Source: Bacteroidaceae bacterium
Lineage (GTDB): Bacteria > Bacteroidota > Bacteroidia > Bacteroidales > Bacteroidaceae
Direction of reading: 5' to 3'
Assembly: GCA_017447625.1 (NCBI GenBank)
Contig: JAFSNB010000013.1
Span: 1 to 36,583 of the forward strand
DNA length: 36,583 nt
Shown: in pieces, positions 8,130-32,438 of the stretch
Position numbering within the stretch: the first letter of the stretch is position 1
Layout of the letters: each line of letters starts with the position of its first letter
Notes under the pieces: model-generated
Database searches by the model: none
The model's input: the letters and a program-made list of their open reading frames with translations, nothing else
Told to the model about the DNA's origin: nothing
Program-made: the position numbers and the translations under genes

Positions 8130-11078
8130 CTATCTTGGGCCGCCGAAGCCGCCGCCACCTCCGAAGCCACCGCGATCGCCACCCGGGCCGGGACCACGGT
8201 CGCCGCCGGGAACGGGGCCTTCGCCTCTCTCTATGCCCTCGGAGCCGCGGTCACGCGGGCCACGGTTGCGGCCGCCAAAAGCGTTGATGCGGTAGGTGAA
8301 GGAGAGCATGATGTAACTGACGACTCGTTCGGAGTCGGAGTCGGTGCGGGCTGTGGAGCTGATGTTGCGGCTGACCATGTCGCGCTGCCCGAGGATGTCC
8401 TGCCAGCGCAGGGTGAGGATGGCCTGCTTGCGGGAGAGGAAGGACCAGGAGAGCTGGGCGTTCCATATCCACTGGTTGGTGTTCATTGCAGCGTCGTTGT
8501 ATCCGCGGCGGCTCTGCTGGCGTATGTCGGTGGAGAAATTGAGACCGATGTCTTGCCAGTTCATATTAGTGGAGGCGCCGTAGGAGAAGTTGTAGGTGTC
8601 GAGATTGGAGGCAGCTGTGGCGGTACTGCGTGCGTGGTTGTAGTTGAAGGAGCCGTTGAGGGAGACGTCGAGCCAGTCGTCGCGGAAGGAGAAGCGCAGG
8701 TTCTCGCCGAAGGAGCTGCTGCGCGTGGTGTTCTTCACGGTCTCGTGGCTGGCGCTCTGATAGACGTAGCTGACGGCGTTGGTGTAACGGGCGTTAGTGC
8801 CGCTGTTGACGCGGAAACGCTGGTCGGAGAAGGCGGTGTTGAAGTTGAAGTTGCCGCTGGCGTTCCAGTTGCCGTTGATGTTCTCGGGTCGGCTTATGCG
8901 TCCGCCGGTCTCCTCGATGTATTCGGTGCGGTTGGATACGGAGTTCTGTGTGGCGCGTGCCTGCACGTTGACATTAAATGAGCGCTGCAGGTCGGGTATG
9001 CTCTTGCGGTACTCGGCGTTGAACGAGTGTGTGAACGAAGGCTTGAGTGCGGGGTTTCCGAGACGGATGTTCAGCGGGTTGGCGTTGGAGATGGTGTCGG
9101 GGATAAGGTCTGTGATAGAGGGCTGTCCGCTCTGTCCGCCATAGCGTACCCGGATCTGCTCCTGTTTGGTGAAACGGTAGCGAAGGTTGAGGGTGGGACT
9201 CCAGTTGACTACGGTGCGCGCCACGTCATAGTGTTTCCAGCCTTTGGTGTAATCGACGGAATTGACTTGCGGCTGCAGGTTGAAGCCCACGTTCACGCGC
9301 CATTTAGTGTCTATGAAGCGGTACTGCAGACGTATGTCGTGGTTCTGGTAACGGTTCTCGGTGTAGTTGCACTGGGCGGTGTCGCGGGTGGCGAGATGTT
9401 GGTAATCTTCCATTGACCATTGACCATTGACCATTGACCATTGGTTGATCAGTGGGGCGACGTTGGGGTCGAAGATGGATGAGACGGTGCGGTCGCGGTC
9501 GTTGAAGCGGTAGGAGTAGTTGTAGGAGAACTGCAGGAACTGGCCTTCGGCGATGGGCTCGGAGTAGCTTATGCGTGCGTTCATGTTACGCCCGATGTTG
9601 CGCGAGTCGTCATACTGGATCTTGTGATATACTGAGTCCTGTCCGGTGTAGGCGAGTATCTGATAGTAGTCGATCTGCGAGTAGTTGCTGCTGTTGCCGT
9701 CGTTCTGATTGAGTCCGCCTCCGAGGTTGAGGGTGATGTTGCGGCCGGGCTTCTTCAGGCGGCGGTTGAACTGCAGGGAGAGGCTCCCGCTGATCTGGTC
9801 GGAGGCGTTGTGGTTTGTGCCGAGGTTGTGGTTTACGGCTATGGAACGCAGGGGCGACCCTACGGGCAATCCGTTGGCGGCGCTGAAGGCACCGAGGGGG
9901 TCGGTGGTGACAGCGTAGGGGTCGTTGTTGAAGGTGGCGCTCTCGCTGTCGGAGTGCGAGCGGCTGTTGTTCCAGCGGAATTCGGGGCGCATCTGGATGT
10001 TGGTCATCGAGTCGGGTTTCCACTCTATGCGCCAGGTGGTGGTGATGCCTTTGCCGTTGGAGTTGTTGTTGTTCTTACGGTTAGAGTAGGCGGCGTTGCG
10101 GTTCTCGAAGCTCTGGCTGTTGCTCCACGAGGCTCCGCTCTGCTGGTTGAAATTGGCGTTCACGCCGCCGTTGAGTTCTAGTTTTGTCCACTCCAGATTC
10201 ATAGAGGCGGCGGCCGTCTGGTTGTCACTCATTCCATTTCCCTGGGTGTTGTTCGCGTTTCCGACAACGGAGAATTTCTGCTTGTCGGCAAAGCGGTTGA
10301 TGTTGGCGCGGCCGTTGTAGCGGTTGTGGGTACCGTAGCCGGCGGAGAGCTGGCCGAACCAACCGCGACGGCGGTCTTTCTTTATCTCCAGGTCAAGGAC
10401 GGTCTGCTCCTCGCCGTCGTCGATGCCGGTGACACGTGCCAGATCGCTCTGTTTGTCGTAGGCCTTGATCTTCTCCACGATTTCGGCCGGGATGTTCTTC
10501 AGCACGGTCTGCTGGTTGCGCCCGAAGAACTCCTTGCCATCAACGAGAATCTGGGATACGGTCTTGCCGTTGTGTGTTATGGTGCCGTTGTCGTCGATGA
10601 CGATGCCGGGCAGTTTCTTTATCAGCTCTTCGACCATAGAGCCCACGGGGACGGTGAAGGCCGAGGCGTTATAGACTGTGGTGTCCTCAACGACTATCAT
10701 CTCCGGCATCTTACCCTCGACCACGGTCTCGCGCATCAGCTGGGCATCCTCGCGCATCAGCACGTCGGCAATCTTCTTGTTGCCGCCCTTGCCGTCGAGC
10801 TTCAGGGCGAAGGTCTGTGTCTTGAAACCCACGAAACTGACAGTGAGGGTGTAGTTGCCCAGAGGCACTCCGGCCAAGAGGAACTGTCCGTTTTGCGATG
10901 TCTGCTTTCCTGCCACCATCTTGCCCTCGCCATCGGTAATCTTTACGGCGGCTCCGGGCAGACCTTTCAGAGTGCTGCTCTCATAGACAGTGCCGCGCAC
11001 GTTGTAGAACTGTGCGCTAAGCGGAAGTGATATTAAAACGAATGTCAGAAGGATGACTGTCTTGATTGCTCTGCTCAT
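8130..11078 (-). CDS. large outer-membrane beta-barrel protein with carboxypeptidase-regulatory and plug domains
   Basis: The 982-aa protein has a signal peptide (residues 1-22, ending LPLSAQ), a carboxypeptidase-regulatory-like beta-sandwich at about 25-110, and a TonB-receptor-type plug at about 120-235 (VEELIKKLPGIVIDDNGT, VDGKEFFGRN). A long beta-barrel follows, with Asn/Ser-rich, aromatic-ended strands. This is the family often annotated as TonB-dependent receptor-like or OMP_b-brl_3; the substrate is unknown. The last 45 residues are Gly/Arg/Pro-rich (GFGGGGGFGGPR) and probably disordered. A five-copy 7-bp tandem repeat (9410-9444) is translated in the barrel as QWSMVNGQWSM, near residues 546-557. 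No SusD-like partner is adjacent, so this is not a typical Sus pair. Base composition is strongly GC-rich compared with the island beside it. Confidence 0.88.
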   Translation of the reverse strand: MSRAIKTVILLTFVLISLPLSAQFYNVRGTVYESSTLKGLPGAAVKITDGEGKMVAGKQTSQNGQFLLAGVPLGNYTLTVSFVGFKTQTFALKLDGKGGNKKIADVLMREDAQLMRETVVEGKMPEMIVVEDTTVYNASAFTVPVGSMVEELIKKLPGIVIDDNGTITHNGKTVSQILVDGKEFFGRNQQTVLKNIPAEIVEKIKAYDKQSDLARVTGIDDGEEQTVLDLEIKKDRRRGWFGQLSAGYGTHNRYNGRANINRFADKQKFSVVGNANNTQGNGMSDNQTAAASMNLEWTKLELNGGVNANFNQQSGASWSNSQSFENRNAAYSNRKNNNNSNGKGITTTWRIEWKPDSMTNIQMRPEFRWNNSRSHSDSESATFNNDPYAVTTDPLGAFSAANGLPVGSPLRSIAVNHNLGTNHNASDQISGSLSLQFNRRLKKPGRNITLNLGGGLNQNDGNSSNYSQIDYYQILAYTGQDSVYHKIQYDDSRNIGRNMNARISYSEPIAEGQFLQFSYNYSYRFNDRDRTVSSIFDPNVAPLINQWSMVNGQWSMEDYQHLATRDTAQCNYTENRYQNHDIRLQYRFIDTKWRVNVGFNLQPQVNSVDYTKGWKHYDVARTVVNWSPTLNLRYRFTKQEQIRVRYGGQSGQPSITDLIPDTISNANPLNIRLGNPALKPSFTHSFNAEYRKSIPDLQRSFNVNVQARATQNSVSNRTEYIEETGGRISRPENINGNWNASGNFNFNTAFSDQRFRVNSGTNARYTNAVSYVYQSASHETVKNTTRSSSFGENLRFSFRDDWLDVSLNGSFNYNHARSTATAASNLDTYNFSYGASTNMNWQDIGLNFSTDIRQQSRRGYNDAAMNTNQWIWNAQLSWSFLSRKQAILTLRWQDILGQRDMVSRNISSTARTDSDSERVVSYIMLSFTYRINAFGGRNRGPRDRGSEGIERGEGPVPGGDRGPGPGGDRGGFGGGGGFGGPR
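9410..9444 (+). repeat. 7-bp tandem repeat, five copies, inside the barrel gene
   Basis: Four copies of CCATTGA and one of CCATTGG are contiguous. On the coding strand this is TCAATGG repeated. Seven is not a multiple of three, so a gain or loss of one unit would shift the frame of the 982-aa barrel protein. Confidence 0.9.
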
Positions 11079-11130
11079 GTCGGTGGCGATGATTACGATT
11101 ATATTGACCGAGGTCAGGCCGAAAGGTTTA

Positions 11131-11179
11131 ATTCACAATTCATAATTCATAATTCACAATTCATGATTCATAATTCATA
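11131..11179 (+). repeat. 7-bp tandem repeat ATTCATA, seven copies
   Basis: Units in order are ATTCACA, ATTCATA, ATTCATA, ATTCACA, ATTCATG, ATTCATA, ATTCATA. The array lies between the divergent barrel and hydrolase genes, about 40 bp upstream of the hydrolase -7 box. Confidence 0.9.
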
Positions 11180-11221
11180 ATTAAAAAGTGTTATTTGTGC
11201 CTGTGGTTGACGGAATTGTTG

Positions 11222-11229
11222 TACCTTTG
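11222..11229 (+). promoter_or_regulatory. -7 box of the hydrolase gene
   Basis: TACCTTTG matches TAnnTTTG exactly. It is 24 bases before the ATG at 11254, giving a short leader. The nearest TTTG (11194-11197) is 24 bases away, slightly too far for a canonical -33 box. The position argues against translation from the upstream in-frame start at 11188. Confidence 0.55.
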
Positions 11230-11253
11230 TGGAGAAATAAACCCTATCACACT

Positions 11254-12084
11254 ATGAAACGTTCATTCTTATTGCTTCTGGCCTCTATGGCCGTGGCCTC
11301 TGCGATGCAGGCCCAAATCTACAACCCGACACGCGAACTGTGGCCGCGCCAAGTGCCCGGAGCCAAGGAGCCGAAGGCAGCCCACGTCTCACGCGAGGGG
11401 CGCGACAACACTTACTATTATGACAAGGTGACGAACCCCACGATTGAGGTGTTCAAGCCGGAACAGGCAAAGGCCAACGGACGGGCCGTGGTGGTCTGCC
11501 CGGGCGGAGCCTACGCCGTGCTGGCATACAACAAAGAGGGGCAGGAGATAGCACAGTGGCTCAACGGACTCGGATACGCCGCCTACGTGCTGGCCTACCG
11601 CGTGCCGGGCAACCGCGAGGGAGCCTTGCAGGATGCGCAGCGTGCCATCCGGTTGGTGAGGGCCGAGGGCTACAAGACCGTGGGCATCATGGGATTCTCG
11701 GCCGGGGCCAGTCTGTCGTGCCGAGCCGCCACCCGCTACACCGTGCAGACATACGCTCCGCAGGACGAGAAGGACACCCTCTCGTGCCGTCCCGATTTCG
11801 CCGGTCTGATCTATCCCGCCTATCTGGACGAGGGTCCCGACGGCACGCTGACGCCCGAGCTTATGGTGACGCGCGAGACGCCGCCAATCTTTATCTTCGG
11901 CACTCAGGACGACGTGAAATACAGCGGTCCCTCGTCGCTGACCATCACCGATGCCATGCGCCGCGCCAATGCCCCCGTGGAACTGCATTATCTGCCCCGC
12001 GGCGGCCACGGATATGGAATGCGTCAGGGTGCAGGACTGATTTGGCCCGGCCTGTATGAGAAGTGGCTTTTTTCGGTAAAGTAA
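11254..12084 (+). CDS. secreted alpha/beta hydrolase, esterase-like
   Basis: The 276-aa protein has a signal peptide (MKRSFLLLLASMAVASAMQA) and an alpha/beta hydrolase core of the carbohydrate-esterase / xylanase-associated type. VCPGGAY at 81-87 is the oxyanion loop, GFSAG at 147-151 puts the nucleophile at Ser149, and Asp219 or Asp220 (GTQDD) and His252 (RGGHGYG) complete the triad. It probably acts in the periplasm or outside the cell on esterified sugars or polysaccharides; the substrate cannot be read from sequence. ATG 11254 is chosen because it begins a good signal peptide and follows the -7 box. A terminator-like hairpin follows. Confidence 0.85.
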   Translation: MKRSFLLLLASMAVASAMQAQIYNPTRELWPRQVPGAKEPKAAHVSREGRDNTYYYDKVTNPTIEVFKPEQAKANGRAVVVCPGGAYAVLAYNKEGQEIAQWLNGLGYAAYVLAYRVPGNREGALQDAQRAIRLVRAEGYKTVGIMGFSAGASLSCRAATRYTVQTYAPQDEKDTLSCRPDFAGLIYPAYLDEGPDGTLTPELMVTRETPPIFIFGTQDDVKYSGPSSLTITDAMRRANAPVELHYLPRGGHGYGMRQGAGLIWPGLYEKWLFSVK

Positions 12085-12515
12085 AAAGTAATAATTAAAA
12101 AGTAAAAAGAGAAAAAGTAAAAGGGAAAAGAGAAGAGAGAGAGTTTAAGAGAAAAAATAAAGCCCCTCTCTTAAACTTCTTAAATTCTTAACAACAACGG
12201 ATTACGCGGATTAAACGGATTTAAGTCTAAAACGAATTTGAATAATTAGAATAATTTTCCCCACTAATAAGAATAATAATTTATGGATTAGATTATTCAT
12301 ATTATTCACATTAATTTCGATAATATAAAAACGATTTAAATGAAAACAATCAGCAACAATATATAAGAATTAAGACCAAAAATATTATTCTTGGACCCGA
12401 ATTTTTGCGTATTCTTGCGAATTCTTTTCCATATTCTGCTGTTTACAACACGATAAAGATAAGGAGAGAAGATGAGAAAAGAGGATAAAAAACAATAGAA
12501 AAAGATAAATTTTGA
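12085..12515. other. gene-free AT-rich stretch
   Basis: No protein or RNA gene is evident. It holds degenerate GTAAAAA-type heptads at its left edge (about 12081-12127), one hairpin (12142-12177), scattered repeat-like words such as GGATTAAACGGATT, and long A/T-rich tracts up to the lysS promoter region. Confidence 0.6.
12142..12177 (+). terminator. terminator-like hairpin after the hydrolase gene
   Basis: AGTTTAAGAGA (12142-12152) pairs perfectly with TCTCTTAAACT (12167-12177) across a 14-base loop. An AT-rich tract follows. It lies 58 bp after the hydrolase stop. Confidence 0.5.
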
Positions 12516-12543
12516 ATTATGAATTAAGCATTATGAATTAAAA
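12516..12543 (+). repeat. 7-bp repeat array ATTATGA, four units, against the lysS -7 box
   Basis: Units are ATTATGA, ATTAAGC, ATTATGA, ATTAAAA. The array stops 4 bp before the -7 box and occupies the place where the -33 box should be. Confidence 0.8.
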
Positions 12544-12547
12544 TCAC

Positions 12548-12555: not shown

Positions 12556-12580
12556 CCGCGCAATCAATTAAATGACTTTT

Positions 12581-14434
12581 ATGAATATACTGGAACTGAG
12601 TGAACAAGAGATAGTTCGCAGGAACAACCTGGAACAAATGAAGCAGATGGGAATCAACCCCTACCCTGCTGCCGAATATCCTGTAACAGCCTGGAGCACT
12701 GATATAATAAAGAACTTCGTGGACCTGCCCGTGATTGGCAAGGACGAAGAGGGTAACGACATCCGCGAGACAGCCACTGCCGAGAACAGCCCCGTAGTGA
12801 GCGTTGCCGGACGAATCATGAGCAAGCGCATCATGGGTAAGGCCGCTTTCGCTGAGCTGAAGGACTCAAAAGGACGCATACAGGTGTATGTGACGAGGGA
12901 TGCGCTGGATGCCCCCCTTAGCCCCCCAACGGGGGGCGAACCTTCCGCTGAAGGGCAATCTGCAACCGAAGCCCCCCATCGGGGGGCCACAGGGGGCTTA
13001 ACCTATCAGGCCTTTAAGAAGCTGCTCGATTTGGGCGACTTCATCGGCGTCAAGGGTTATGTGTTCCGCACCAAGACGGGCGAGATAAGCATTCACGTGT
13101 CGGAGATGACGGTGCTCTCGAAGAGCCTGAAGCCGCTGCCCATAGTCAAGACCGACTCCGAGGGCAATGTCTATGACTCGTTCGACGACCCCGAACTGCG
13201 CTACCGCCAACGCTACGTAGATCTCATAGTGAACGCCGGCGTGAAGGAGACTTTCGAGAAGCGTGCCATAATAATCCGCACGATGCGCCGCATACTCGAC
13301 GAAGCCGGATACACCGAGGTAGAGACACCAATACTGCAGAGCATCGCCGGCGGCGCCACAGCACGCCCGTTCATCACCCACTTCAACGCCCTGAACCAGG
13401 ATATGTACATGCGCATAGCCACTGAGCTGTATCTGAAACGCCTCATCGTGGGCGGTTTCGAGGGCGTTTATGAGATGGGCAAGAACTTCCGCAACGAAGG
13501 AATGGACAAGACCCACAACCCCGAATTCACCTGCATGGAGTTGTACGTCTCGTATAAGGACTACAACTGGATGATGTCCTTCACCGAGAAGATGCTGGAA
13601 GAGATCTGCACCGCCGTAAACGGTAAGCCGGAGGTGGAGATCGACGGGCAGGTGATTTCCTTCAAAGCCCCCTACCGCCGTCTGCCTATCCTCGACGCCA
13701 TCAAGGAGAAGACGGGCTTCGACTGCGAGGGGAAGAGCGAGGAGGAAATCCGCGCCTTCTGCAAGGAGAAGGGGATGGAGGTTGACGAGACCATGGGCAA
13801 AGGCAAGCTCATCGACGAGCTGTTCGGCGAGTTCTGCGAAGGCTCGTTTATCCAGCCCACATTCATCACCGACTACCCCGTGGAGATGTCCCCGCTGACG
13901 AAGATGCACCGCTCAAAGCCCGGTCTCACCGAGCGCTTCGAGCTGATGGTGAACGGCAAGGAGCTGGCCAACGCCTACTCTGAGCTGAACGACCCCATAG
14001 ACCAGGAGGAGCGTTTCATAGACCAGATGCGTCTGGCTGACAAGGGCGACGACGAGGCGATGATCATCGACCACGACTTCCTGCGCGCCCTGCAGTACGG
14101 AATGCCTCCCACCAGCGGCATCGGCATCGGCATAGACCGTCTGACGATGCTGATGACGGGCAAGTTCGCCATAGGCGAGATCATGCTGTTCCCGCAGATG
14201 AAGCCCGAGAAACGCATGCCGAAGGACAAGCCCGAGGCGTTCACGGCACTGGGCTTCGCAGAGGACATCGTTCCGGTGCTCAACAAATGCGGCTACAATC
14301 TCGTCACCGACCTCACCGGCGTGAAAGCGCAGAAGCTGCAACAGCAGATCGGCGAGGTAATAAAGAAATACAAACTCGATATCGAAAAGCCCTCTGTGGC
14401 TGACTTAGAGCAAATACTTCAAGCCTGTGTTTAG
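12581..14434 (+). CDS. lysS: lysyl-tRNA synthetase, class II
   Basis: LysS charges tRNA-Lys with lysine in the cytoplasm. The 617-aa protein has an N-terminal OB-fold anticodon-binding domain (SVAGRIMSKRIMGKAAFAEL) and a class II catalytic core. Motif 2 is FRNEGMDKTHNPEFTCMELY and motif 3 is GIGIGIDRLTML. The Bacteroidales-type C-terminal helical tail is present. I start at ATG 12581 (MNILELSEQE), as in relatives known to me; an in-frame ATG at 12572 would add three residues. Residues 111-140 (PLSPPTGGEPSAEGQ, TEAPHRGATGG) are encoded by two inverted GC-rich palindromes, in a loop of the OB-fold domain just before KKLLDLGDFIG. This makes the protein longer than the roughly 575 aa I expect. 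gpsA overlaps its end by 8 bp. Confidence 0.95.
   Translation: MNILELSEQEIVRRNNLEQMKQMGINPYPAAEYPVTAWSTDIIKNFVDLPVIGKDEEGNDIRETATAENSPVVSVAGRIMSKRIMGKAAFAELKDSKGRIQVYVTRDALDAPLSPPTGGEPSAEGQSATEAPHRGATGGLTYQAFKKLLDLGDFIGVKGYVFRTKTGEISIHVSEMTVLSKSLKPLPIVKTDSEGNVYDSFDDPELRYRQRYVDLIVNAGVKETFEKRAIIIRTMRRILDEAGYTEVETPILQSIAGGATARPFITHFNALNQDMYMRIATELYLKRLIVGGFEGVYEMGKNFRNEGMDKTHNPEFTCMELYVSYKDYNWMMSFTEKMLEEICTAVNGKPEVEIDGQVISFKAPYRRLPILDAIKEKTGFDCEGKSEEEIRAFCKEKGMEVDETMGKGKLIDELFGEFCEGSFIQPTFITDYPVEMSPLTKMHRSKPGLTERFELMVNGKELANAYSELNDPIDQEERFIDQMRLADKGDDEAMIIDHDFLRALQYGMPPTSGIGIGIDRLTMLMTGKFAIGEIMLFPQMKPEKRMPKDKPEAFTALGFAEDIVPVLNKCGYNLVTDLTGVKAQKLQQQIGEVIKKYKLDIEKPSVADLEQILQACV
12908..13003. repeat. 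paired GC-rich palindromes inside lysS
   Basis: The sequence contains GCCCCCCAACGGGGGGC and, in the opposite arrangement, GCCCCCCATCGGGGGGC. They are flanked by CCCCCTTAGC on the left and CACAGGGGGCTTA on the right, so the whole block is roughly an inverted repeat. It is read in frame without a stop. Confidence 0.85.
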
Positions 14435-15485
14435 TATCTTTTCTTCCTCCAAAAAGGCGGACGAGAAGAGCATACCCGACAAGTCCGCTCCGTGGTCCAT
14501 CGGCACGATTGCCGTGATGGGAGGCGGCTCGTGGGCCACAGCCATCGCCAAAATGATGCTGGAGAAGAACGATGAGATATGGTGGTATCTGCGTCGCGAC
14601 GACCGCATCGAGGACTTCAAGAAGCTGGGCCACAACCCCGCATACCTCATCAGCGTGCATTTCGACACAGACCGCATACACTTCTCCTCGGACATCAACG
14701 AGGTGGTGGAAAACGCAAACACTCTCGTTTGGGTAACACCATCGCCTTACCTCAAAGGCCATCTGAAGAAATTGAAGGTGCGCCTGCGCGACAAATTCAA
14801 CATCACCGCCATCAAGGGTATCGTGCCGGACGAGAATCTCGTCTGCTCTGAGTATTTTCATCAGGTCTATGGCGTGCCGGACGACAACCTGTCGGTAATC
14901 GCTGGCCCCTCGCACGCAGAGGAGGTGGCGCTCGGACGTCTCACCTACCTCACCGTGGGCTGCTCTGATCTGGATAAGGCGCGCGCTTTCTCTGACATGA
15001 TGGGCTCGGACTATGTCAAGACCAAGACCTCCAGAGATGTCATCGGCATCGAGTACGCCTCGGTGCTGAAAAACGTCTATGCCATAGCATCCGGCATCTG
15101 CGACGGTCTGAAGTACGGCGACAACTTCCAGGCGGTGCTCATCTCAAACGCCCTGCAGGAGATGAACCGTTTCCTGACCACCGTACACCCCATAGAGCGC
15201 AGCATCTTCGACTCCGCATATATGGGCGACCTGATTGTGACGGGCTACTCTAACTTCTCCCGCAACCGCATCTTCGGAAAGATGATCGGCCGCGGCTACA
15301 GCGTGAAGTCGGCGCAGATAGAGATGGAGATGATTGCAGAGGGTTATTTCGGCAGCAAATGCATGAAGGAGATCAACCGCCACATGCATGTGAATATGCC
15401 CATCCTCGATGCCGTATATAACATTCTCTACGAACGCATATCGCCCGCAATAGAGATTAAACTCCTCACGGACAGCTTCAGGTAG
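14427..15485 (+). CDS. gpsA: glycerol-3-phosphate dehydrogenase, NAD(P)-dependent
   Basis: GpsA reduces dihydroxyacetone phosphate to sn-glycerol 3-phosphate for phospholipid synthesis. The nucleotide-binding loop is VMGGGSWATAIAKMML. K215 in ASVLKNVYAIASGI fits the catalytic lysine, and YSNFSRNR is the conserved substrate-binding stretch. The C-terminus AIEIKLLTDSFR is typical of Bacteroidales. The protein is 352 aa with a 25-residue N-terminal extension (SSSKKADEKSIPDK) of unknown role. The start is a GTG overlapping the lysS stop region by 8 bp, which implies translational coupling. Confidence 0.93.
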   Translation: MFSIFSSSKKADEKSIPDKSAPWSIGTIAVMGGGSWATAIAKMMLEKNDEIWWYLRRDDRIEDFKKLGHNPAYLISVHFDTDRIHFSSDINEVVENANTLVWVTPSPYLKGHLKKLKVRLRDKFNITAIKGIVPDENLVCSEYFHQVYGVPDDNLSVIAGPSHAEEVALGRLTYLTVGCSDLDKARAFSDMMGSDYVKTKTSRDVIGIEYASVLKNVYAIASGICDGLKYGDNFQAVLISNALQEMNRFLTTVHPIERSIFDSAYMGDLIVTGYSNFSRNRIFGKMIGRGYSVKSAQIEMEMIAEGYFGSKCMKEINRHMHVNMPILDAVYNILYERISPAIEIKLLTDSFR

Positions 15486-15518
15486 AGATTAGAGATGAGA
15501 GATTAAAGATTAGAGATT
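15484..15518 (+). repeat. 7-bp tandem repeat AGAGATT, five copies, before the GH89 start
   Basis: Units are AGAGATT, AGAGATG, AGAGATT, AAAGATT, AGAGATT. The array starts at the gpsA stop and ends two bases before the ATG at 15521, so it forms the whole intergenic spacer and the ribosome-binding region of the next gene. Confidence 0.9.
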
Positions 15519-15520
15519 TG

Positions 15521-17728
<2,208 letters not shown>

Positions 17729-17768
17729 TTCATAATTTTTAATTATTCGACTTCGCTCATCAGTACGT

Positions 17769-17872
17769 CATAATGCATAATTCATAATAATAAATTAAAA
17801 TGGCGGCCTTTTCGGTTATTCGATTAAACGATTAAACGATTATTCTATTATTCGGGATTCAGGCGGCCGCCA
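17769..17872. repeat. heptads and a long-spaced inverted repeat before pgi
   Basis: CATAATG, CATAATT, CATAATA (17769-17789) are three heptads. TGGCGGCC (17801-17808) and GGCCGCCA (17865-17872) form an 8-bp inverted repeat. Between them lie tandem CGATTAAA units (17821-17844). The function is unknown; the block fills the gap between the GH89 gene and pgi. Confidence 0.6.
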
Positions 17873-19250: not shown

Positions 19251-19282
19251 GGACTCTCCCCCCGCCCTCCCTAAAGGGAGGG
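19251..19282 (-). repeat. 32-bp GC-rich palindromic element, inverted copy
   Basis: GGACTCTCCCCCCGCCC begins the copy and CTCCCTAAAGGGAGGG ends it. It is the exact reverse complement of 19380-19411. The two copies face each other across 97 bp that hold the start of the HAD gene. Confidence 0.92.
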
Positions 19283-19345
19283 GGCGAGAACCTTTGAGGA
19301 ATGGACCACAGGACTGCATCACCCGATAGGTATAAGTTACTTTAA

Positions 19346-20089
19346 ATGAACGATAACAACCAGTCAAATACTAATTGCTCCCTCCCTTTAGGGAGGGCGG
19401 GGGGAGAGTCCAATATTCGTGCCGTTTTATTCGACATGGATGGCGTGCTGTTCGACAGCATGCCAGGCCATGCGTATGCGTGGGTGAGGGCCGTGGAACG
19501 CTACGGCCTCTCCATGACCGCCGAGGAAGTTTATATGAATGAGGGGCGCACGGGCGCCGGCACAATCAACGCACTGGCCCAGCGCACGTGGGGACGCGAT
19601 GCCACTGAGCAGGAGATACAGGACATCTACGCCGCCAAGAGCGAGATATTCAACGAATACTTCCGCGCACGCGGCGAAGCACCCGTAATGCCCGGCGTCC
19701 TCTCCTTATTAAATAAGGTACGCGCGCAAGGGCTGATGCGAGTCATCGTCACCGGCTCCGGCCAGCACTCCCTGCTGGACAACCTCAACCGCCACTTCCC
19801 CGGTATCTTCACCCCCGAGCTTATGGTCACCGCCTTCGACGTGAAGAAAGGGAAGCCGCACCCCGAGCCTTACCTCATGGGACTGAAGAAAGCACAGGTG
19901 TCGGCAGACGAGGCAGTGGTGATCGAGAACGCCCCCCTCGGCGTCGAAGCCGCACGCGCCGCCGGTATCTTCACCATCGCCGTGAACACCGGCCCCCTGC
20001 CCGACAGCGCCCTCTATGTAGCTGGCGCCAACCGCGTCTTCCCCTCCATGCAGGCGCTGGCAGACAAATGGCCTGAATTCAATTCATAA
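19346..20089 (+). CDS. HAD-superfamily phosphatase, beta-phosphoglucomutase or phosphoglycolate phosphatase-like
   Basis: The 247-aa protein has the HAD core: motif I FDMDGVLFDS with Asp30 and Asp32, motif II VTGSG, the motif III lysine in KKGKPHPEPYL, and motif IV VIENAPLGVEAARAAG. A helical cap sits after motif I, which places it near beta-phosphoglucomutase-like sugar-phosphate phosphatases. The exact substrate is not readable. Residues 11-22 (CSLPLGRAGGES) are encoded by the 32-bp palindromic element, so the N-terminus ahead of the first strand is repeat-derived. The stop codon lies inside the next heptad array. Confidence 0.88.
   Translation: MNDNNQSNTNCSLPLGRAGGESNIRAVLFDMDGVLFDSMPGHAYAWVRAVERYGLSMTAEEVYMNEGRTGAGTINALAQRTWGRDATEQEIQDIYAAKSEIFNEYFRARGEAPVMPGVLSLLNKVRAQGLMRVIVTGSGQHSLLDNLNRHFPGIFTPELMVTAFDVKKGKPHPEPYLMGLKKAQVSADEAVVIENAPLGVEAARAAGIFTIAVNTGPLPDSALYVAGANRVFPSMQALADKWPEFNS
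19380..19411 (+). repeat. 32-bp GC-rich palindromic element, in frame in the HAD gene
   Basis: The copy begins CCCTCCCTTTAGGGAGGG and ends CGGGGGGAGAGTCC. It is read as SLPLGRAGGES, the same frame as the copy in the GH89 gene, and is an exact inverted match of 19251-19282. Confidence 0.92.
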
Positions 20090-20112
20090 TGCATAATTCA
20101 TAATGCATAATT
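20082..20112 (+). repeat. 7-bp tandem repeat ATTCATA / ATGCATA, four copies
   Basis: ATTCATA and ATGCATA alternate twice, then ATT. The HAD stop codon (20087-20089) is inside the array, and its right edge meets the left inverted repeat of the next element. Confidence 0.85.
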
Positions 20113-20392
20113 GGGCAGGCTGCTATCAATGAACGAACACGAATCTCGCTAATCTAACGAATTAAAATCGCGCCAGCCATATTCGTACAATTCGTGCAAT
20201 TCGTGTTCGAAATTAAAGTATCGCGCAGCATATATTCGTACAATTAACTTTGTTGATTGTACTCCCGCTCGGCAGACTGAAAGCAAGCTTTCGTATGCTC
20301 TCGCTTATTCGTACAATTCGTATAATTACCTCCCTTTGGTCAGTGGGTCTGCGACAAATCTCGTTGCGTTAATTGTTAGCAGCCTGCCCAAT
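20110..20392. mobile_element. MITE-like element with 16-bp terminal inverted repeats
   Basis: ATTGGGCAGGCTGCTA (20110-20125) and TAGCAGCCTGCCCAAT (20377-20392) are perfect 16-bp inverted repeats bounding 283 bp with no gene. Inside are three copies of ATTCGTACAATT (20181, 20234, 20308). Heptad arrays abut both ends. No target-site duplication is obvious, so transposition is inferred from the ends only. Confidence 0.6.
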
Positions 20393-20394
20393 GG

Positions 20395-20443
20395 TCAATG
20401 TTCAATGTTCAATGTTCAATGTTCAAAGTTCAATGTTCAATTC
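20395..20443 (+). repeat. 7-bp tandem repeat TCAATGT, seven copies, carrying start codons
   Basis: Units are TCAATGT four times, TCAAAGT, TCAATGT, TCAATTC. Because the period is 7, the ATGs fall in all three frames. The sixth unit supplies the SDR start at 20433. Confidence 0.9.
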
Positions 20444-21570: not shown

Positions 21571-21678
21571 TCTGAGACGGCCGTCTCAGATTCAGGTGAC
21601 GGCTGTCTCAGGTTCATGACACGGCCGTGTCAGATTCGTGAGACGGCTGTCTCAGAATCAGGTGACGGCCGTCACCTG
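21571..21678. repeat. five-unit palindrome array with an exact 22-bp period
   Basis: The core ACGG(C/T)CGT or ACGGCTGT recurs at 21577, 21599, 21621, 21643 and 21665, each exactly 22 bp from the last. Each core sits in a palindrome, for example TCTGAGACGGCCGTCTCAGA, TGACACGGCCGTGTCA and GGTGACGGCCGTCACC. Arms vary in matched pairs while the spacer (AGATTC-like) is kept. It lies between the MGMT gene and gltX, which are convergent. Confidence 0.9.
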
Positions 21679-23341: not shown

Positions 23342-23355
23342 AACTCAAAAATATA

Positions 23356-23387
23356 GGACTCTCCCCCCGCCCTCCCTGTAGGGAGGG
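23356..23387 (-). repeat. 32-bp GC-rich palindromic element in the gltX leader
   Basis: The + strand begins GGACTCTCCCCCCGCCC and ends CTCCCTGTAGGGAGGG. It differs from the 19251 copy only in the hairpin loop. It would be transcribed in the gltX 5' leader and could fold next to the translation start. Confidence 0.9.
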
Positions 23388-23433
23388 AGCGAAATGAGGA
23401 CAGCAGGATTAGTAATTCTTGATTTTGTGGGTG

Positions 23434-23441
23434 CAAAAGTA
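23434..23441 (-). promoter_or_regulatory. -7 box of gltX
   Basis: On the minus strand this is TACTTTTG, a match to TAnnTTTG. The expected -33 position, about 19 bases further right, falls inside the GTAAAAA heptad array. Confidence 0.55.
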
Positions 23442-23533: not shown

Positions 23534-23546
23534 CCCCGCAAAGCTA

Positions 23547-23622
23547 ATTATGAATTATGCATTATGCATTAAGAATTATGCTATGCGCAGCCTAATTATG
23601 AATTATGCATTAAGAATTAAGA
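23547..23622 (+). repeat. 7-bp repeat ATTATGC / ATTAAGA, nine units in two blocks
   Basis: Block one (23547-23581) has ATTATGA, ATTATGC, ATTATGC, ATTAAGA, ATTATGC. Block two (23595-23622) has ATTATGA, ATTATGC, ATTAAGA, ATTAAGA. They are separated by TATGCGCAGCCTA. The arrays make up most of the leader of the PgpH-like gene. Confidence 0.88.
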
Positions 23623-23631
23623 ATTGACATC

Positions 23632-25770
23632 ATGAGCCGCTATAACCGAGAAAGAAAGATTACGCTGAAGGAGCATCTGCTGCAGGCACTGGTGCTCACG
23701 ATAAGCATCGCACTGCTGGTGTGGAATCTGCCGCGAACGGACAACACGTCGTTCCATATCGAGAAGGGACGCCCCTGGCCCTACGGACAGTTCATTGCCC
23801 CGTACGACTTCTCCATATTCAAGACCAGCGAGCAGATGAGTCACGAGATGGACAGTGTACACCGCCTCTATGAGCCCTATTTCGAGCTGCTGCCGGGAAC
23901 AACGTCTCTGAACAAATTCCGCGAGGATCAGATAGGCCGTGTGGGCGCGGGCGAACTGCCCATGAGCCTCTATTCGCGACTGTTCACGGCTCTGCAGAAT
24001 GTGTATAGGCGCGGCATACTCTCGGCCCACGACCAGACGATGCTGATGAAGGACAGCATAGAGTTCGTGCGTATTTATTATGGTATGGAGGCGTACACGC
24101 AGGGCGCGGATGAGCTGTTCACGGAGAAGACGGCCTACGAATATGTATTCTCGCAGGTGGACAGTATCGGACTGAGCCGCTCGCGCGTGAAGCAGATAAA
24201 CCTGAACACGTACCTGACGCCGAACCTGCGCTACGACTCGAAGAAGAGCGACGCGGAGATGGAGGATCTCGAAGCCTCTATCACCGACAGGCACGGGATG
24301 GTGCAAGCCGGACAGAACGTGATCGGGCGCGGAGACATCGTTGACGAAGAGACATACAATATACTGCGGAGCTACGAGCTGGAGACGAAGCTCAGGAACA
24401 AAGACCGCAACATGCAGAACTACCCAAGACTGATCGGGCAGACGCTCTATGTGGCCCTGATTATGCTTAGCCTGACGATATACTTCATATTGTTCCGACA
24501 GGATTATCTGGGCAGCACCCGCTCTATGCTGCTGCTGCTGACGCTCACACTCTCGTTTCCGCTGCTGACATGCTTCATGGTTCGCCACAGCCTGCTCTCG
24601 GTGTATATTATCCCGTACGCGATGCTGCCGATATTTGTCCGCGTCTTCATGGATTCGCGAACGGCTTTCATCACCCACGCAGCCACAATTTTGCTCTGTG
24701 CCGTGGCGTTGAAGTATCCGTTTGAGTTTATTACGACCCAGTGCGTTGCCGGACTGATAGCCATCTACACTCTGCGCGAGCTGTCGGAGCGCTCGCAGAT
24801 TATTCAGACGGCATTCCTGGTCACGGTGGCGGCGGCGGTGTTCTACCTGAGTCTGGAACTGATTAACGGGAAACATGTACTTGGCGACAACACCCTGAAC
24901 ACGATTGATTACGTTATCTACCGCCATATACTGGTGAGCGGCCTGCTGCTGCTGTTTGCCTATCCGCTGATGTACGCGCTGGAGAGGGTGTTCGGTTTCA
25001 CCAGCAACGTGACGCTGGTGGAACTCTCGAACATCAACCGCGACCTGCTGAGACGCCTTTCTGAGGTGGCTCCCGGCACATTCCAGCACTCGATGCAGGT
25101 GAGTAATCTTGCGGCTGAGGCAGCCAGACGGATCGGGGCCAAGAGCCAGCTGGTGAGAACGGGCGCCCTGTACCACGACATAGGCAAGATGTATAACCCG
25201 CCATTCTTCACAGAGAACCAGACAGGCGGCGTGAATCCCCACGAGCAACTGGACGAGAAGGAGAGCGCACGCATTATAATCCGCCACGTGACGGAGGGTC
25301 TGAGTATGGCTGAGCGCAACCGCCTGCCGGAGCTCCTGCGCGAGTTTATCTCCACACATCACGGGCGCGGGCTGGCCAAATACTTCTATATCTCAGCTAA
25401 GAACAAGAACCCGAACAGCGAGATCAACGAAGAGGACTTCCGCTATCCAGGACCGAACCCGCACACGGCAGAGCAGGCTATACTGATGATGGCAGACGCC
25501 GTGGAGGCTTCGTCGCGCGCGCTGAAAGAATACACTGAGGAGAGCATCGGCACGCTTGTAGATAAGATTATCGACGGGCAGATGACGGAAGGGTTCTTCA
25601 ACGACTGTCCGATTACCTTCCAGGACGTTCAGACGGTGAAGGAAGTGTTCAAGGAGAAACTGATGATTATCTATCACACCCGCATACAATACCCGGAACT
25701 TAAAAGCACAGAGAACACAGAGAAGACAGAGGACACAGAGGACACAGAGGCTGCGCGCAGCAATCTTTAA
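23632..25770 (+). CDS. PgpH-like 7TM-HD cyclic-di-AMP phosphodiesterase
   Basis: Proteins of this architecture (PgpH family) hydrolyse the second messenger c-di-AMP. The 712-aa protein has an N-terminal membrane anchor (about 17-33), an extracytoplasmic domain of the 7TMR-HDED type (about 40-260), a block of about seven transmembrane helices (about 275-460), and a cytoplasmic HD domain. The metal-binding HD pair is H515-D516 in GALYHDIGKMYNPPFF, with more His in FQHSMQVS, IIRHVTEG and STHHGRG. The C-terminal tail STENTEKTEDTEDTEAA is encoded by a 9-bp tandem repeat and is probably not ancestral. It diverges from gltX across the GTAAAAA array. Confidence 0.9.
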   Translation: MSRYNRERKITLKEHLLQALVLTISIALLVWNLPRTDNTSFHIEKGRPWPYGQFIAPYDFSIFKTSEQMSHEMDSVHRLYEPYFELLPGTTSLNKFREDQIGRVGAGELPMSLYSRLFTALQNVYRRGILSAHDQTMLMKDSIEFVRIYYGMEAYTQGADELFTEKTAYEYVFSQVDSIGLSRSRVKQINLNTYLTPNLRYDSKKSDAEMEDLEASITDRHGMVQAGQNVIGRGDIVDEETYNILRSYELETKLRNKDRNMQNYPRLIGQTLYVALIMLSLTIYFILFRQDYLGSTRSMLLLLTLTLSFPLLTCFMVRHSLLSVYIIPYAMLPIFVRVFMDSRTAFITHAATILLCAVALKYPFEFITTQCVAGLIAIYTLRELSERSQIIQTAFLVTVAAAVFYLSLELINGKHVLGDNTLNTIDYVIYRHILVSGLLLLFAYPLMYALERVFGFTSNVTLVELSNINRDLLRRLSEVAPGTFQHSMQVSNLAAEAARRIGAKSQLVRTGALYHDIGKMYNPPFFTENQTGGVNPHEQLDEKESARIIIRHVTEGLSMAERNRLPELLREFISTHHGRGLAKYFYISAKNKNPNSEINEEDFRYPGPNPHTAEQAILMMADAVEASSRALKEYTEESIGTLVDKIIDGQMTEGFFNDCPITFQDVQTVKEVFKEKLMIIYHTRIQYPELKSTENTEKTEDTEDTEAARSNL
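25708..25752 (+). repeat. 9-bp tandem repeat at the 3' end of the PgpH-like gene
   Basis: Five units: ACAGAGAAC, ACAGAGAAG, ACAGAGGAC, ACAGAGGAC, ACAGAGGCT. The period keeps the frame, so copy number changes only lengthen a Thr/Glu/Asp tail. A palindrome GCTGCGCGCAGC (25750-25761) follows. Confidence 0.88.
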
Positions 25771-25806
25771 TCCCTACTCTTTAATCTTTAATCTATAATC
25801 TTATAA
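25765..25806 (+). repeat. 7-bp repeat CTTTAAT, six units, over two convergent stop codons
   Basis: Units are CTTTAAT, CCCTACT, CTTTAAT, CTTTAAT, CTATAAT, CTTATAA. The PgpH-like stop (25768-25770) and the priA stop (25801-25803, minus) both lie within it, so the array is the whole convergent intergenic region. Confidence 0.85.
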
Positions 25807-27867
25807 AGGGTCTACGTCGAAGTAAATCTGGGCCGAACTGAAAGTCTTGTCGGCCAGCAAACGGGTGCGCATGTCCATAAGCATGGAGTGTGCGCGGGAT
25901 GTGGGTATCTGACTCTCTAACTTTACTAACGCCTTGCGGATGAAAAGGCCGGAGATGCGCGGAATAGCCGGTTCGTCGGGACCGAGCACACGCGAGCCGA
26001 ACAGACGGCGCAAGGCATTTGTGGTCTCTACAATCAGATGGTCGGCCACGTCTGAGCTGCGGTGTTTCACATAAACCACGATGAGACGAACAAACGGAGG
26101 ATAGGCGAAAGCACGCCGCTCTTCCATCTGCTCAAGATACATAGCGTCGTAGTCGCCGGCGGTGACTTGGGCAATCAGCGGCAGAGCGGCCTGACGTGTC
26201 TGAAGGATGACACGACCCTGACTCTGGCGGCGTCCGGCACGTCCGGCCACCTGAGCCATCATCTGATAAGCACGCTCGTAAGCCCGGAAGTCCGGCTGGA
26301 GAAGCATAGTATCAGCATCAAGGATACCGACGAGGCTCACACGACCGAAGTCCAGTCCCTTGGTAACCATCTGAGTGCCTACAAGAATGTCTGTCTGCTC
26401 TGTCTCAAAGTCGGAGATTATGCCTTCGTAGGCTGTGCGGGTGCGGGTGGTGTCGAGATCCATGCGAGCAACACGTGCGTCGGGGAAAATCTCTGCTATT
26501 TCAGTTTCTATGCGTTCGGTGCCGAAGCCCTGCTGCCGCAGGTGTGTGTTGCCACAAGAAGGGCACTCGGTAGGTATATCGGCAGAGAAACCGCAGTAGT
26601 GGCAGGTGACGCGGTGTGTGCGGCGGTGGTAAGTGAGGCTCACGTCGCAGTGGGGACAACGGGGAACCCATCCGCAAAGGCCACATTCCATCATTGGGGC
26701 AAAACCGCGGCGGTTCTGAAACAGGATTACCTGCTCCTTCGCCTGCAGAGCCTCGCGGATGGCTTCTAAAAGTCGTGGCGAGAAGATGCCCCGCATCATT
26801 TTCTTGCGCTTCTGCTCGCTCACATCAACAACCTCAATCTCTGGCAGACTGACTTGCCCGAACCTCTCTGTGAGGGTGACAAGTCCGTATTTACCCGTGC
26901 GGGCGTTGAAATAGCTCTCGAAGGAGGGGGTGGCGGTGCCAAGCAGAGTACGGGCTCCGGAACGGGATGCGAGCATTATGGCCGCGTTGCGCGCATGATA
27001 GCGGGGTGCCGGCTCCTGCTGCTTGAATGTCACCTCGTGCTCCTCGTCAACGATGACCAGGCCAAGGCGGTTGAAGGGCAGGAAGATGCTGGAACGCACT
27101 CCGACGATGATATCATATGGGCAGTCGGAGAGCTGACGGCGCCACACATCCTCGCGCTGACGGTCGCTGTATTTGCTGTGGTATATGCCGAGACGGTCGC
27201 CGAAGACGCGGCGCAAGCGGTCGGTGAGCTGTGTGGTGAGGACAATCTCCGGCAGCAGGTACAACACCTGCTTGCCCTCAGCTATAGCCTCCGCTATCAG
27301 ATGAATGTATATCTCGGTCTTGCCGCTTGACGTCACGCCGTGAAGCAGGCACACAGACCGTGTCTCCCACTGCGTGTGGATAGCTGCAAGGGCAGAGGAC
27401 TGAGCAGGGGAAAGATCAGGGAGAAAAAGGCCCACCCCCGACAGACCCTCTCCCCGCTCCCCCATAAGGGGGAGAGCCTCGCTTCGCTCGAGAGCTGCGC
27501 GCAGCCTTCTCCCCTCCCTCACGGGAGGGGTCAGGGGGTGGGACTTCTTTAGGGGTCCTGGCAAGGCTGCCTTGAAGACTTCACCCAAATGGCAGAGGTA
27601 ATAGGAGGAGAGCCACTGCCAAAAGGACAGCTGCTGAGGGAAAATTATTGGTGACGAATCCACAACCTCGATTGCATCCTTGACTGTTATGCCTTCGGGC
27701 GGAGTGTCATGCTGGCGGACAATAAGGCCCACCGCAGTCTTCTTCGTTCCGAACGGCACAACGATGCGGCACCCTGCCTCCGCTGCGGGTTGCAGTTGGG
27801 GAGGCAGGGCGTAGGTAAATGTGCCGGGAAGCGGCACTGGCAGGATTACGTCAACAAATCGCGCCAT
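25801..27867 (-). CDS. priA: primosomal protein N', replication restart helicase
   Basis: PriA reloads the replisome at stalled forks. The 688-aa protein has an N-terminal 3'-end-binding domain (1-105), Walker A GVTSSGKT at 177-184, DEEH at 274-277, the zinc-binding cysteine pairs (CGLCGWVPRCPHC, CHYCGF, CPSC), and helicase motifs GTQMVTKGLDF and QVAGRAGR. In E. coli PriA the Walker lysine is K230; here it is K183. The winged-helix domain normally found between the first domain and the helicase is not recognisable. That place holds about 40 residues (SHPLTPPVREGRR to GERGEGLSGVG) encoded by GC-rich palindromes. The small barrel gene upstream ends 7 bp before the start, so they are probably co-transcribed. 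Confidence 0.93.
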   Translation of the reverse strand: MARFVDVILPVPLPGTFTYALPPQLQPAAEAGCRIVVPFGTKKTAVGLIVRQHDTPPEGITVKDAIEVVDSSPIIFPQQLSFWQWLSSYYLCHLGEVFKAALPGPLKKSHPLTPPVREGRRLRAALERSEALPLMGERGEGLSGVGLFLPDLSPAQSSALAAIHTQWETRSVCLLHGVTSSGKTEIYIHLIAEAIAEGKQVLYLLPEIVLTTQLTDRLRRVFGDRLGIYHSKYSDRQREDVWRRQLSDCPYDIIVGVRSSIFLPFNRLGLVIVDEEHEVTFKQQEPAPRYHARNAAIMLASRSGARTLLGTATPSFESYFNARTGKYGLVTLTERFGQVSLPEIEVVDVSEQKRKKMMRGIFSPRLLEAIREALQAKEQVILFQNRRGFAPMMECGLCGWVPRCPHCDVSLTYHRRTHRVTCHYCGFSADIPTECPSCGNTHLRQQGFGTERIETEIAEIFPDARVARMDLDTTRTRTAYEGIISDFETEQTDILVGTQMVTKGLDFGRVSLVGILDADTMLLQPDFRAYERAYQMMAQVAGRAGRRQSQGRVILQTRQAALPLIAQVTAGDYDAMYLEQMEERRAFAYPPFVRLIVVYVKHRSSDVADHLIVETTNALRRLFGSRVLGPDEPAIPRISGLFIRKALVKLESQIPTSRAHSMLMDMRTRLLADKTFSSAQIYFDVDPL
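27429..27548 (-). repeat. GC-rich palindromic block inside priA
   Basis: The block contains CTCCCTCACGGGAG, CCCCCATAAGGGGG, a CTTCGCTCGAGAG segment and GCTGCGCGCAGC (27494-27505). CCCACCCCC on the left edge mirrors GGGGGTGGG on the right, so the whole block is an inverted repeat. It is read through in frame. Confidence 0.85.
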
Positions 27868-28531: not shown

Positions 28532-28561
28532 AAGCGCTTAAATTAAAAGGTTAATAATAGG

Positions 28562-28582: not shown

Positions 28583-28605
28583 TTTGGGTTATGTCGGTTT
28601 ATGGG

Positions 28606-29700: not shown

Positions 29701-29726
29701 ATTATGCTTTATGTCTTATCCGTTGG

Positions 29727-31292: not shown

Positions 31293-31332
31293 ATTCTAAT
31301 TTATAGAATGTTTGTGTGTATATCGTTTAATC

Positions 31333-32394
31333 TCAGACCTTGGGAGCAGCTCCAGGCATATTCACAGTCATTGCCTCAATCATGCGAGCATAGATGGAGT
31401 TGAGCTCTTCTATCTGCTGGGCCATGCGGCGTGTCTGTTCGTTGATATTGTCTATCGTGCCTACCTGCTGGCTGATGCTCTTCAACTGCATCTCATAGAT
31501 GGTATTTATGCCGGTGAGGGTGCGGTTGAGATTCTCCATCTCCAGGCTGTCCTGAGTCATGCGGTCGGCCTGTTCCTTAACACGGTTCAGGACCTCTGTG
31601 AGTTCTGTCAGCTGCTCTACATAAGCGGTAATGGCATCCTCCACTTCCGGAGTACCAATCACCTGAGCTGTTTCCATCACGCTCTGCGGGTCGTTGCCAG
31701 ATACATTCTGACCCATCTGAGCCACGGCTGCTGCAGCTGCTGCGAGGTTGGCTGCTGCGTCGTCGGATATACCCGCACCGCCGCCGATTACTCCGCCGCC
31801 ACCGATGACACTTCCGCCACCAATGACTACAGAGCCCTCGCCCACAGTACCTTCGCCTGCGGCTGAACCGCCACCGCCAATAACTACTGTTCCAGATGCT
31901 CCGGCAGGTGCGCCGCCGCCAATAATAACGGTTCCGCCACCACCGCCGCCTCCAGCGATTACGGTGCCGCCCTCTGAAGAGCCAGATACGCCCGACGCGC
32001 CAGCAACAACTGTACCACCAGACACACCGGCTGCGCCGATGCTGCCAGCAGCTGCGGCTGCGCCGATGCTGCCAGCGGCTGCGGCTGCGGCCTGAGCTGC
32101 GGCCTTTACGGCCTCCATGTCCTCAAGGTCGATAAATTCATCAGCAAGCTGGGTCTCGTTCTTGGCATCAAACGGACGGTCGAAACCGGAGATGAAGAAC
32201 ACGAACACCTCCGTGCCCATTCCGATGAAAAGCATTGCATTGGCGCCCGGGATGTGGGTCAGCTTGAACAGCGTACCGAGAATAACGACTGCGGCACCCC
32301 ACGAGTAGGCGTAGTTCATAAACGTCTGGCCCGGCACGGAATCCATCCAATGCTGTAATCGGGCTATGAGAGAGAATTTGGACATATCTGACAC
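31333..32394 (-). CDS. gldL: type IX secretion motor protein GldL/PorL with an expanded Gly/Ala linker
   Basis: GldL is the inner-membrane proton-channel partner of GldM. Two transmembrane helices are visible (about 26-45 and 52-71). E62 in GMGTEVFVFF fits the essential glutamate of the second helix. The cytoplasmic region ends in a helical coiled-coil segment (ITAYVEQLTELTEVLNRVKE). Between them, residues about 95-225 are a Gly/Ala/Val/Ser-rich stretch with repeats such as GGTVVIGGGG, GSIGAAAA and SVIGGGGVIGGGAG. The 353-aa length exceeds the about 215 aa of Flavobacterium GldL and about 310 of P. gingivalis PorL. The start may be Met1 or Met4. Confidence 0.93.
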   Translation of the reverse strand: MSDMSKFSLIARLQHWMDSVPGQTFMNYAYSWGAAVVILGTLFKLTHIPGANAMLFIGMGTEVFVFFISGFDRPFDAKNETQLADEFIDLEDMEAVKAAAQAAAAAAGSIGAAAAAGSIGAAGVSGGTVVAGASGVSGSSEGGTVIAGGGGGGGTVIIGGGAPAGASGTVVIGGGGSAAGEGTVGEGSVVIGGGSVIGGGGVIGGGAGISDDAAANLAAAAAAVAQMGQNVSGNDPQSVMETAQVIGTPEVEDAITAYVEQLTELTEVLNRVKEQADRMTQDSLEMENLNRTLTGINTIYEMQLKSISQQVGTIDNINEQTRRMAQQIEELNSIYARMIEAMTVNMPGAAPKV

Positions 32395-32438
32395 GGCCAG
32401 CGGCCGTTTGGTTTAATGTTTAACGATTAGTGTTTAAA
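32393..32438. repeat. ACGGCC/GGCCGT inverted repeat and GTTTAAC heptads between gldK and gldL
   Basis: ACGGCC (32393-32398) and GGCCGT (32402-32407) form an inverted repeat around AGC. Next to it are four 7-bp units, GTTTAAT, GTTTAAC, GATTAGT, GTTTAAA (32411-32438). Together they occupy the 52-bp gldK-gldL spacer and include the gldL ribosome-binding region. Confidence 0.7.

Follow-up and report, generated by a model that had tools for sequence, protein, structure and literature searches.

Thirteen short tandem arrays, all described as having a period of 7 bp yet built from different words, lie within 23 kb of a single contig of a Bacteroidaceae genome, and they raise the question of what process could have placed them there. 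We addressed this question in the window, by which we mean the whole stretch of 36,583 bp analyzed (bases 1-36583 of contig C6). The genome is 2.56 Mb in 46 contigs and ~73% complete. Judged by LysS, its closest named relatives among the 80 loci retained belong to uncultured rumen Bacteroidales and Prevotellaceae (~82% identity). The pattern is real and strong. The arrays are probably a variant of bacterial heptamer repeats already known, one that is AT-rich, forms mosaics, and is copied around the genome and lengthened in place; this reading covers most of what we observed.

Period-7 arrays and the preferred unit length

Tandem Repeats Finder placed a period-7 array at all 13 positions named in the initial annotation, with weak cases at 17769 (score 33, 2.9 copies) and 32411 (score 33, 70% matches), and a fourteenth that had been overlooked, with the word AATTAAG, lies at 23594-23625. 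From 8101 to 32500 there are 15 period-7 rows with a score of at least 33, two of which overlap each other at 12078-12140, compared with a mean of 0.17 and a maximum of 1 in 60 local dinucleotide shuffles. At a score of at least 50, 8 rows stand against 0 in the shuffles. Periods 6, 8, and 9 gave 2, 2, and 7 rows in this interval at a score of at least 33 and 0, 1, and 2 rows at a score of at least 40; one coding period-6 array in the window is at 14116. Copy numbers run from 2.9 to 10.4 instead of the 3 to 9 first given. The description of the words as unrelated holds in part: several do differ, but 5 of the 13 arrays (6 of 14) are AATTATG or near variants in either orientation (11131, 12516, 17769, 20082, and 23547, plus 23594), the arrays at 12081 and 23453 have one word in common, and those at 9410 and 20395 differ by one base. 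The defence island was rightly described as free of arrays, with zero in bases 1-8100, though this stretch is short and mostly coding. The array-free island at 176-4156 encodes a partial DNA methylase (PF01555) and a Type III restriction subunit (PF04851). The arrays are as follows.

9410..9443, minus strand: 4.9 copies of TCAATGG within the outer-membrane beta-barrel gene 8130-11078, translated as SMVNGQWSM
11129..11182, minus strand: AATTATG array with variants AATTGTG and AATCATG, between divergent genes
12078..12122, plus strand: degenerate AAAAGTA array, overlapping the stop codon of open reading frame (ORF) 11188-12084
12508..12540, plus strand: AATTATG array upstream of lysS
15483..15518, plus strand: TTAGAGA array beginning within the gpsA stop codon
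16950..16980, plus strand: 4.4 copies of CTCAACT, where the NAGLU gene encodes a variable loop
17729..17788, minus strand: AATTATG array with the 24-bp linker ACGTACTGATGAGCGAAGTCGAAT after it
17821..17842, plus strand: period-8 array CGATTAAA, whose word heads 4 sampled arrays including this one
20081..20112, minus strand: AATTATG/CATTATG array with a 14-bp higher-order unit, overlapping the stop codon of gene 19346-20089
20389..20441, plus strand: 7.6 copies of TCAATGT, up to the likely SDR start codon
23435..23507, plus strand: AAAAGTA array with a 21-bp higher-order unit (Tandem Repeats Finder; the row extends to 23521)
23546..23580, plus strand: AATTATG array, then boundary module GCGCAGCC at 23585 (Tandem Repeats Finder, polarity alignment)
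23594..23625, plus strand: AATTATG/AATTAAG array, one base past GCGCAGCC (Tandem Repeats Finder, polarity alignment)
25707..25750, plus strand: period-9 array CACAGAGGA, encoding the C-terminal tail of an HD-domain protein
25762..25802, plus strand: AATCTTT array (21-bp higher-order unit) that overlaps the HD-domain gene stop codon, with convergent genes on either side
32411..32437, no strand assigned: weak GTTTAAT/GTTTAAC array, 70% matches (Tandem Repeats Finder)

A preference for this unit length is also present genome-wide. Our genome sample comprised 20 stretches outside the window (400 kb, ~16% of the genome; 436,583 bp with the window). In the 400 kb, exact runs of at least 12 matched bases numbered 29, 14, 14, and 11 at periods 7, 8, 9, and 10 and zero at periods 2 to 6 and 11, and one shuffle of the sample gave none at periods 7 to 10. 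Runs of at least 14 matched bases numbered 12, 12, 10, and 9 at these four periods, with periods 7 and 8 equal. Periods 14, 21, 22, and 24 also ring in the sample, the first two being multiples of 7. Because runs of at least 12 also occur at periods 8 to 10 and only weaker runs at 6 and 11 (runs of at least 10 over the 436,583 bp: 7 versus 1.3 and 7 versus 0.7), a period that was said to be always 7 is better given as units of 7 to 10 bp, seldom shorter or longer. To judge from the lower edge at 7, re-pairing of ~7 bases may be a requirement, an idea already put forward for polymerase slippage. Loci totalling 1.44 Mb from other Bacteroidales gave 11, 32, 11, 3, 1, 6, and 4 arrays of at least three copies at periods 6 to 12, and the 32 period-7 arrays contain 26 different words.

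Recurring words and mosaic structure

Part of the arrays have a definite polarity and boundaries, linkers and flanks are common to several loci, words recur in other species of the genus, arrays concentrate in intergenic DNA and protein loops, and some contain higher-order units. We sampled 50 arrays (20 of period 7, 20 of period 8, 7 of period 9, and 3 of period 10). Seven of the 20 period-7 arrays repeat TCAATGT and four repeat TCAATGG, and TCAATGN triplets have 248 overlapping matches in the whole genome. Across 139 genomes of the genus, our own included, TCAATGN triplets occur in 58 (0 to 176 matches in the others) and the reversed pattern in 4, ATTATGN triplets in 70 and their reversal in 0, and an 8-bp word in 41 and its reversal in 14.

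Many AATTATG or AATGKTC arrays, read in one polarity, begin directly after ...GCGCAGCC(C/T) or ...GCCC; ACGTACTGATGAGCGAAGTCGAAT comes next after several of the AATTATG arrays. Among 47 arrays of the two main words, 17 carry an upstream end motif, defined as AGCC, GCCC, or AGCT within the 7 bp before the array, and none (0/47) has the motif at the mirrored downstream end. A fresh set gave 8/17 and no mirrored case; minus one locus that overlaps the first set, the counts are 7/16 versus 0/16 (p = 0.007). The 24-bp linker has 8 matching places (at most 5 mismatches), 6 of them beside AATTATG units, and 54 to 60 bp of 17729..17788 recur at 81 to 94% in five other sampled loci. Linkers and modules of boundary plus array are frequent among our own sampled stretches but rare in the loci compared from other genomes, even though the words themselves are widespread in the genus.

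Flanking DNA recurs as well. With the arrays masked, flanks were found elsewhere in the sample for 18 of 50 arrays, compared with 4 of 50 random places (p = 0.0013). Each of 10 array- or repeat-bearing gaps in the window matches 1 to 33 sampled loci, arrays included, and the PGI gene used as a control matches none. Two loci ~1.4 kb apart, L293 and L294, have the same array, and a single T is the only difference in the 40-bp flank. Long matches elsewhere in the genome also cover 12126-12443, where aligning seven other copies from the genome revealed a palindromic element:

12230..12330, no strand assigned: dispersed palindromic element of ~100 bp with GAATAAT 9-mer arms, adjoining 9-bp CGGATTAAA units

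The clearest mosaic case is 20081-20441, where two arrays bracket an insert:

20113..20389, no strand assigned: insert of 277 bp between the HAD and SDR genes, with arrays at both outer sides

The insert has perfect 13-bp terminal inverted repeats (20113-20125 and 20377-20389), the AATTATG (20081) and TCAATGT (20389) arrays both read outward from it, and 117 bp within it recur at 94% at another sampled locus (L007). In the genome nearest to ours, G059, the same neighbouring genes are present without the insert or the flanking arrays, and the HAD and SDR genes abut or overlap; its HD-GltX gap holds degenerate repeats of a different word. At the site of the beta-barrel array (9410), this genome (locus L150) has different residues and no repeat.

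Other dispersed elements lie in the same intergenic DNA. A GC-rich palindrome of the CTCCCTAAAGGGAGGGGG type occurs at 19251-19287 and 23354-23402, and the gap holding the first copy matches 11 other places in the sample. Downstream of an OGT-like gene, 21574-21673 holds palindromic units of 22 bp in tandem, GAGACGGCCGTCTCAGATTCAG, and similar units are found between gltX and priA in G059 and at L012 of our genome. Short modules recur in combination in intergenic DNA, as in interspersed mosaic elements.

The polarity of neighbouring arrays is suggestive only. Eight pairs in the first sample comprised 5 divergent, 3 direct, and 0 convergent (p = 0.03 versus 25%), and a second sample added 1 divergent and 1 direct. 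GC content upstream and downstream differs for TCAATGN arrays of our genome (p = 0.01) and for genus loci (p = 0.04); no difference was found for AATTATG arrays, for the genome G080, or for phylum or named loci.

Arrays mostly avoid genes: 38 of the 50 are intergenic, 9 lie inside ORFs, and 3 at ORF edges, although a simple ORF rule classes 88.7% of the DNA as coding (binomial p ~1e-30). Several overlap a stop codon or finish at a likely start codon, and those within genes sit in tolerant loops. For example, among seven aligned relatives of the NAGLU loop, one (L142) has a TTTCAAC/CTCAACT array, one (L055) an array of another word, and five none. In the LysS loop, the window sequence, L055, and L148 have inserts that resemble GC-rich repeats, L060 has two adjoining 7-bp arrays, and most relatives shown have no such insert. 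Four genes of the window carry in-frame inserts:

12572-14434: LysS
15518-17728: NAGLU
19346-20089: HAD
25801-27867: PriA

The encoded inserts (e.g., LSPPTGGEPSAEG and SLPLGRAGGES) resemble translated GC-rich repeats, and those in the LysS loop differ between species.

Origin of the arrays

The initial annotation favoured a common generating process over a spreading sequence. A genome-wide unit-length preference is supported, but the either-or is not: since many loci repeat the same words in fixed polarity, together with boundary modules and linkers, the spreading of several repeat families is part of the cause. We picture the arrays as part of a large and mostly species-specific stock of small dispersed intergenic repeats, in which several families of 7- to 10-bp units (in the window, AATTATG, TCAATGK, and AAAAGTA) are joined, many of them in fixed polarity, to GC-rich boundary modules, short linkers, and palindromic elements. 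New sites would be seeded by copying mosaic pieces from elsewhere in the genome. Arrays may later lengthen or shorten in place through slippage or unequal recombination of whole units, and selection would clear them from genes unless frame and fold allow. Higher-order units are the trace expected from duplicating several units at once; they measure 14 bp at 20081 and 21 bp at 23435 and 25762, and a long TCAATGT array on contig C1 has an 84-bp block spacing.

Several results weigh against this reading. The linker and end motif were defined on the first sample, and fresh loci were tested for the motif only. In other species, the upstream motif is rare (5/45, mirrored 1/45). Thirty-two of the 50 sampled arrays have no repeated flank, with 17% of the genome sampled, and flanks in G080 recur for 5 of 30 arrays versus 2 of 30 random places, which is not significant. 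Some words, AGAGATT and GTTTAAC among them, were not met again in the sampled arrays and could have arisen locally. In the phylum as a whole (296 genomes, our own included), TCAATGN occurs in 9 and its reversed control in 5, and for this reason we regard the word as typical of the genus and not of the phylum. No insertion event between close strains was seen; the only near-identical pair in 30 loci, G002 and G066, is array-poor, and its stretches overlap by 8.6 kb with 0 seven-base indels in that alignment. Finally, no mobilising enzyme was identified.

The alternative that survives best, though we consider it doubtful, is local origin alone: at each site a chance heptamer would have been grown by polymerase slippage with a preferred 7-nt step, and recurrence of words would reflect slippage bias. 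The unit-length preference in the 400 kb, the variety of words in other Bacteroidales, and the higher-order units of the window all fit this idea. So does the covariation of the two 7-bp word counts over the 139 genomes (Spearman 0.53; kinship ignored, as in all species correlations here), a joint rise that points to either a whole-genome property or shared ancestry; the 8-bp word correlates with the two at 0.34 and 0.16. Expansion of the reversed word in distant genomes points the same way. This control, GTAACTN triplets, has 72 matches in G274 and 10 in G239, where another word has expanded; in the 18 kb of G274 examined, a genome chosen for its reversed word, no arrays were found. Against purely local growth stand the boundaries, linkers, and flanks common to many arrays and the dominance of the same words in the genus, where reversed words of equal composition are rare or absent for the 7-bp patterns, but not for the 8-bp word.

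It is unlikely that the arrays are regulatory, that is, TCAATG and ATTATG hexamers with a free spacer base, bound by a protein or acting near start or stop codons and multiplied by selection. Six unit positions are kept and one varies, as such sites would predict, but our TCAATGN and ATTATGN search patterns themselves leave one position free; the same caveat applies to the phasing of array ends (chi-square p = 2e-5, 35 arrays in genus loci). A regulatory role has been proposed for TAACTGA arrays near start codons (PMC4679880). We rejected start-codon placement here: a gene starts at the final ATG of a TCAATGN array in 3/19 cases in our genome, 1/7 in G080, 6/33 in genus loci, and 0/8 in phylum loci, little above the 7 to 9% of random ATGs. 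Moreover, 81 of the 139 genus genomes have no TCAATGN triplet.

A single sequence-guided process in Bacteroidales that writes or copies tandem units of 7 to 10 bases, almost never shorter ones, outward from GC-rich element ends, using the same few words (TCAATGN and [AC]ATTATG) in many species of a genus, seems very improbable to us, and its odds are lowered because TCAATGN is little commoner than its reversed control at phylum distance. We give still less credence to a dedicated templated enzyme, primase-like or a reverse transcriptase, that adds 7- to 10-nt repeats. The narrow unit length and the recurrence of words in the genus would suit such an enzyme, as would 81 TCAATGN matches in G215, a genome of another class, though it was found via that word. 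We compared 22 of the 24 genomes with at least 40 matches of the two 7-bp words (array rich) with 22 of the 48 without any match (array free); counts of absent genes are noisy because the genomes are incomplete. Reverse transcriptases (PF00078) occur in 6/22 array-rich and 9/22 array-free genomes, without association, and the priming enzyme first suggested has no positive evidence, primases not having been searched for. Y1 transposases showed no association either (11/22 versus 9/22), and our own genome, at 73% completeness, has no Y1_Tnp match. Loss of mismatch repair, which could account for the strong variation in array number between species, has almost no chance of being the cause and is largely refuted for MutS1, which is above the family cut-off in 21/22 array-rich and 22/22 array-free genomes, and the units of 2 to 6 it would be expected to favour are absent from the 400-kb sample at runs of at least 12.

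Relation to known repeats

Short tandemly repeated repetitive sequences of heterocystous cyanobacteria include several heptanucleotide words in one genome, as here. Bacterial interspersed mosaic elements and REP- or MITE-like repeats likewise combine palindromic units with short motifs in small mosaics between genes. A MITE would have terminal inverted repeats together with a target-site duplication, and 13-bp inverted repeats were observed at 20113 and 20377. Unlike in mosaic or REP elements, tandem arrays of 7- to 10-mers are a main module here, and Y1 transposases do not track array number.

The closest comparisons come from PMC4679880 and PMC4692102. As described there, Mrazek (2007) reported long simple sequence repeats with units of 5 to 11 nt, heptamers being commonest, and slippage tied to an ~7-nt polymerase contact has been proposed for heptamer repeats. 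Our arrays resemble this class in their long units, the peak at 7, and variation between relatives. They are tandem runs above chance in their own genome, and heptamers are the most abundant among runs of at least 12, tying with period 8 at runs of at least 14. Units of 5, 6, and 11 are lacking at runs of at least 12 in the 400 kb, with a weak excess of 6 and 11 at runs of at least 10 and period 6 present in other genomes. Unlike the published class, these arrays have AT-rich words and units of 7 to 10 and are joined to dispersed modules.

In Xanthomonas and Nostoc, the arrays of GGGNATC or GGGGA(C/T)T (PMC4692102, which also mentions three heptanucleotides in Calothrix) likewise consist of heptamers with one free position and are dispersed, in excess in noncoding DNA, and spread over distant phyla, but they form G-quadruplexes, and the 7-bp words sampled in our genome have no GGG run. 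Direct repeats of TAACTGA, known from Beggiatoaceae, cyanobacteria, and five Bacteroidetes (PMC4679880), are also heptamers, patchy over phyla and near gene ends, and a further likeness is that other heptamer repeats lie nearby in some of the Bacteroidetes. That system has one word, whereas several occur here without a clear start-codon excess, and TAACTGA was not among our sampled period-7 words. In the open-access literature, we found no earlier description of the words reported here or of Prevotella interspersed repeats; the single match to the words was a paper on a Lactobacillus toxin-antitoxin.

What this case adds is the AT-rich words, the narrow window of 7 to 10, the fixed-polarity joining to boundary modules, and the range across one genus. 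Narrow unit length and word-specific recurrence place a measurable constraint on the origin of bacterial tandem repeats, and a genus whose 139 genomes have anywhere between zero and hundreds of matches offers a natural experiment. Protein-loop insertions and shifted gene ends in these genomes are likewise explained by the mosaics, which is relevant to gene calling and structure prediction. Arrays of other periods occur in the same genome: at L007:587-1864, period-10 arrays carry a CCTAGG palindrome in each unit, and related CCTAGG words are present in G002.

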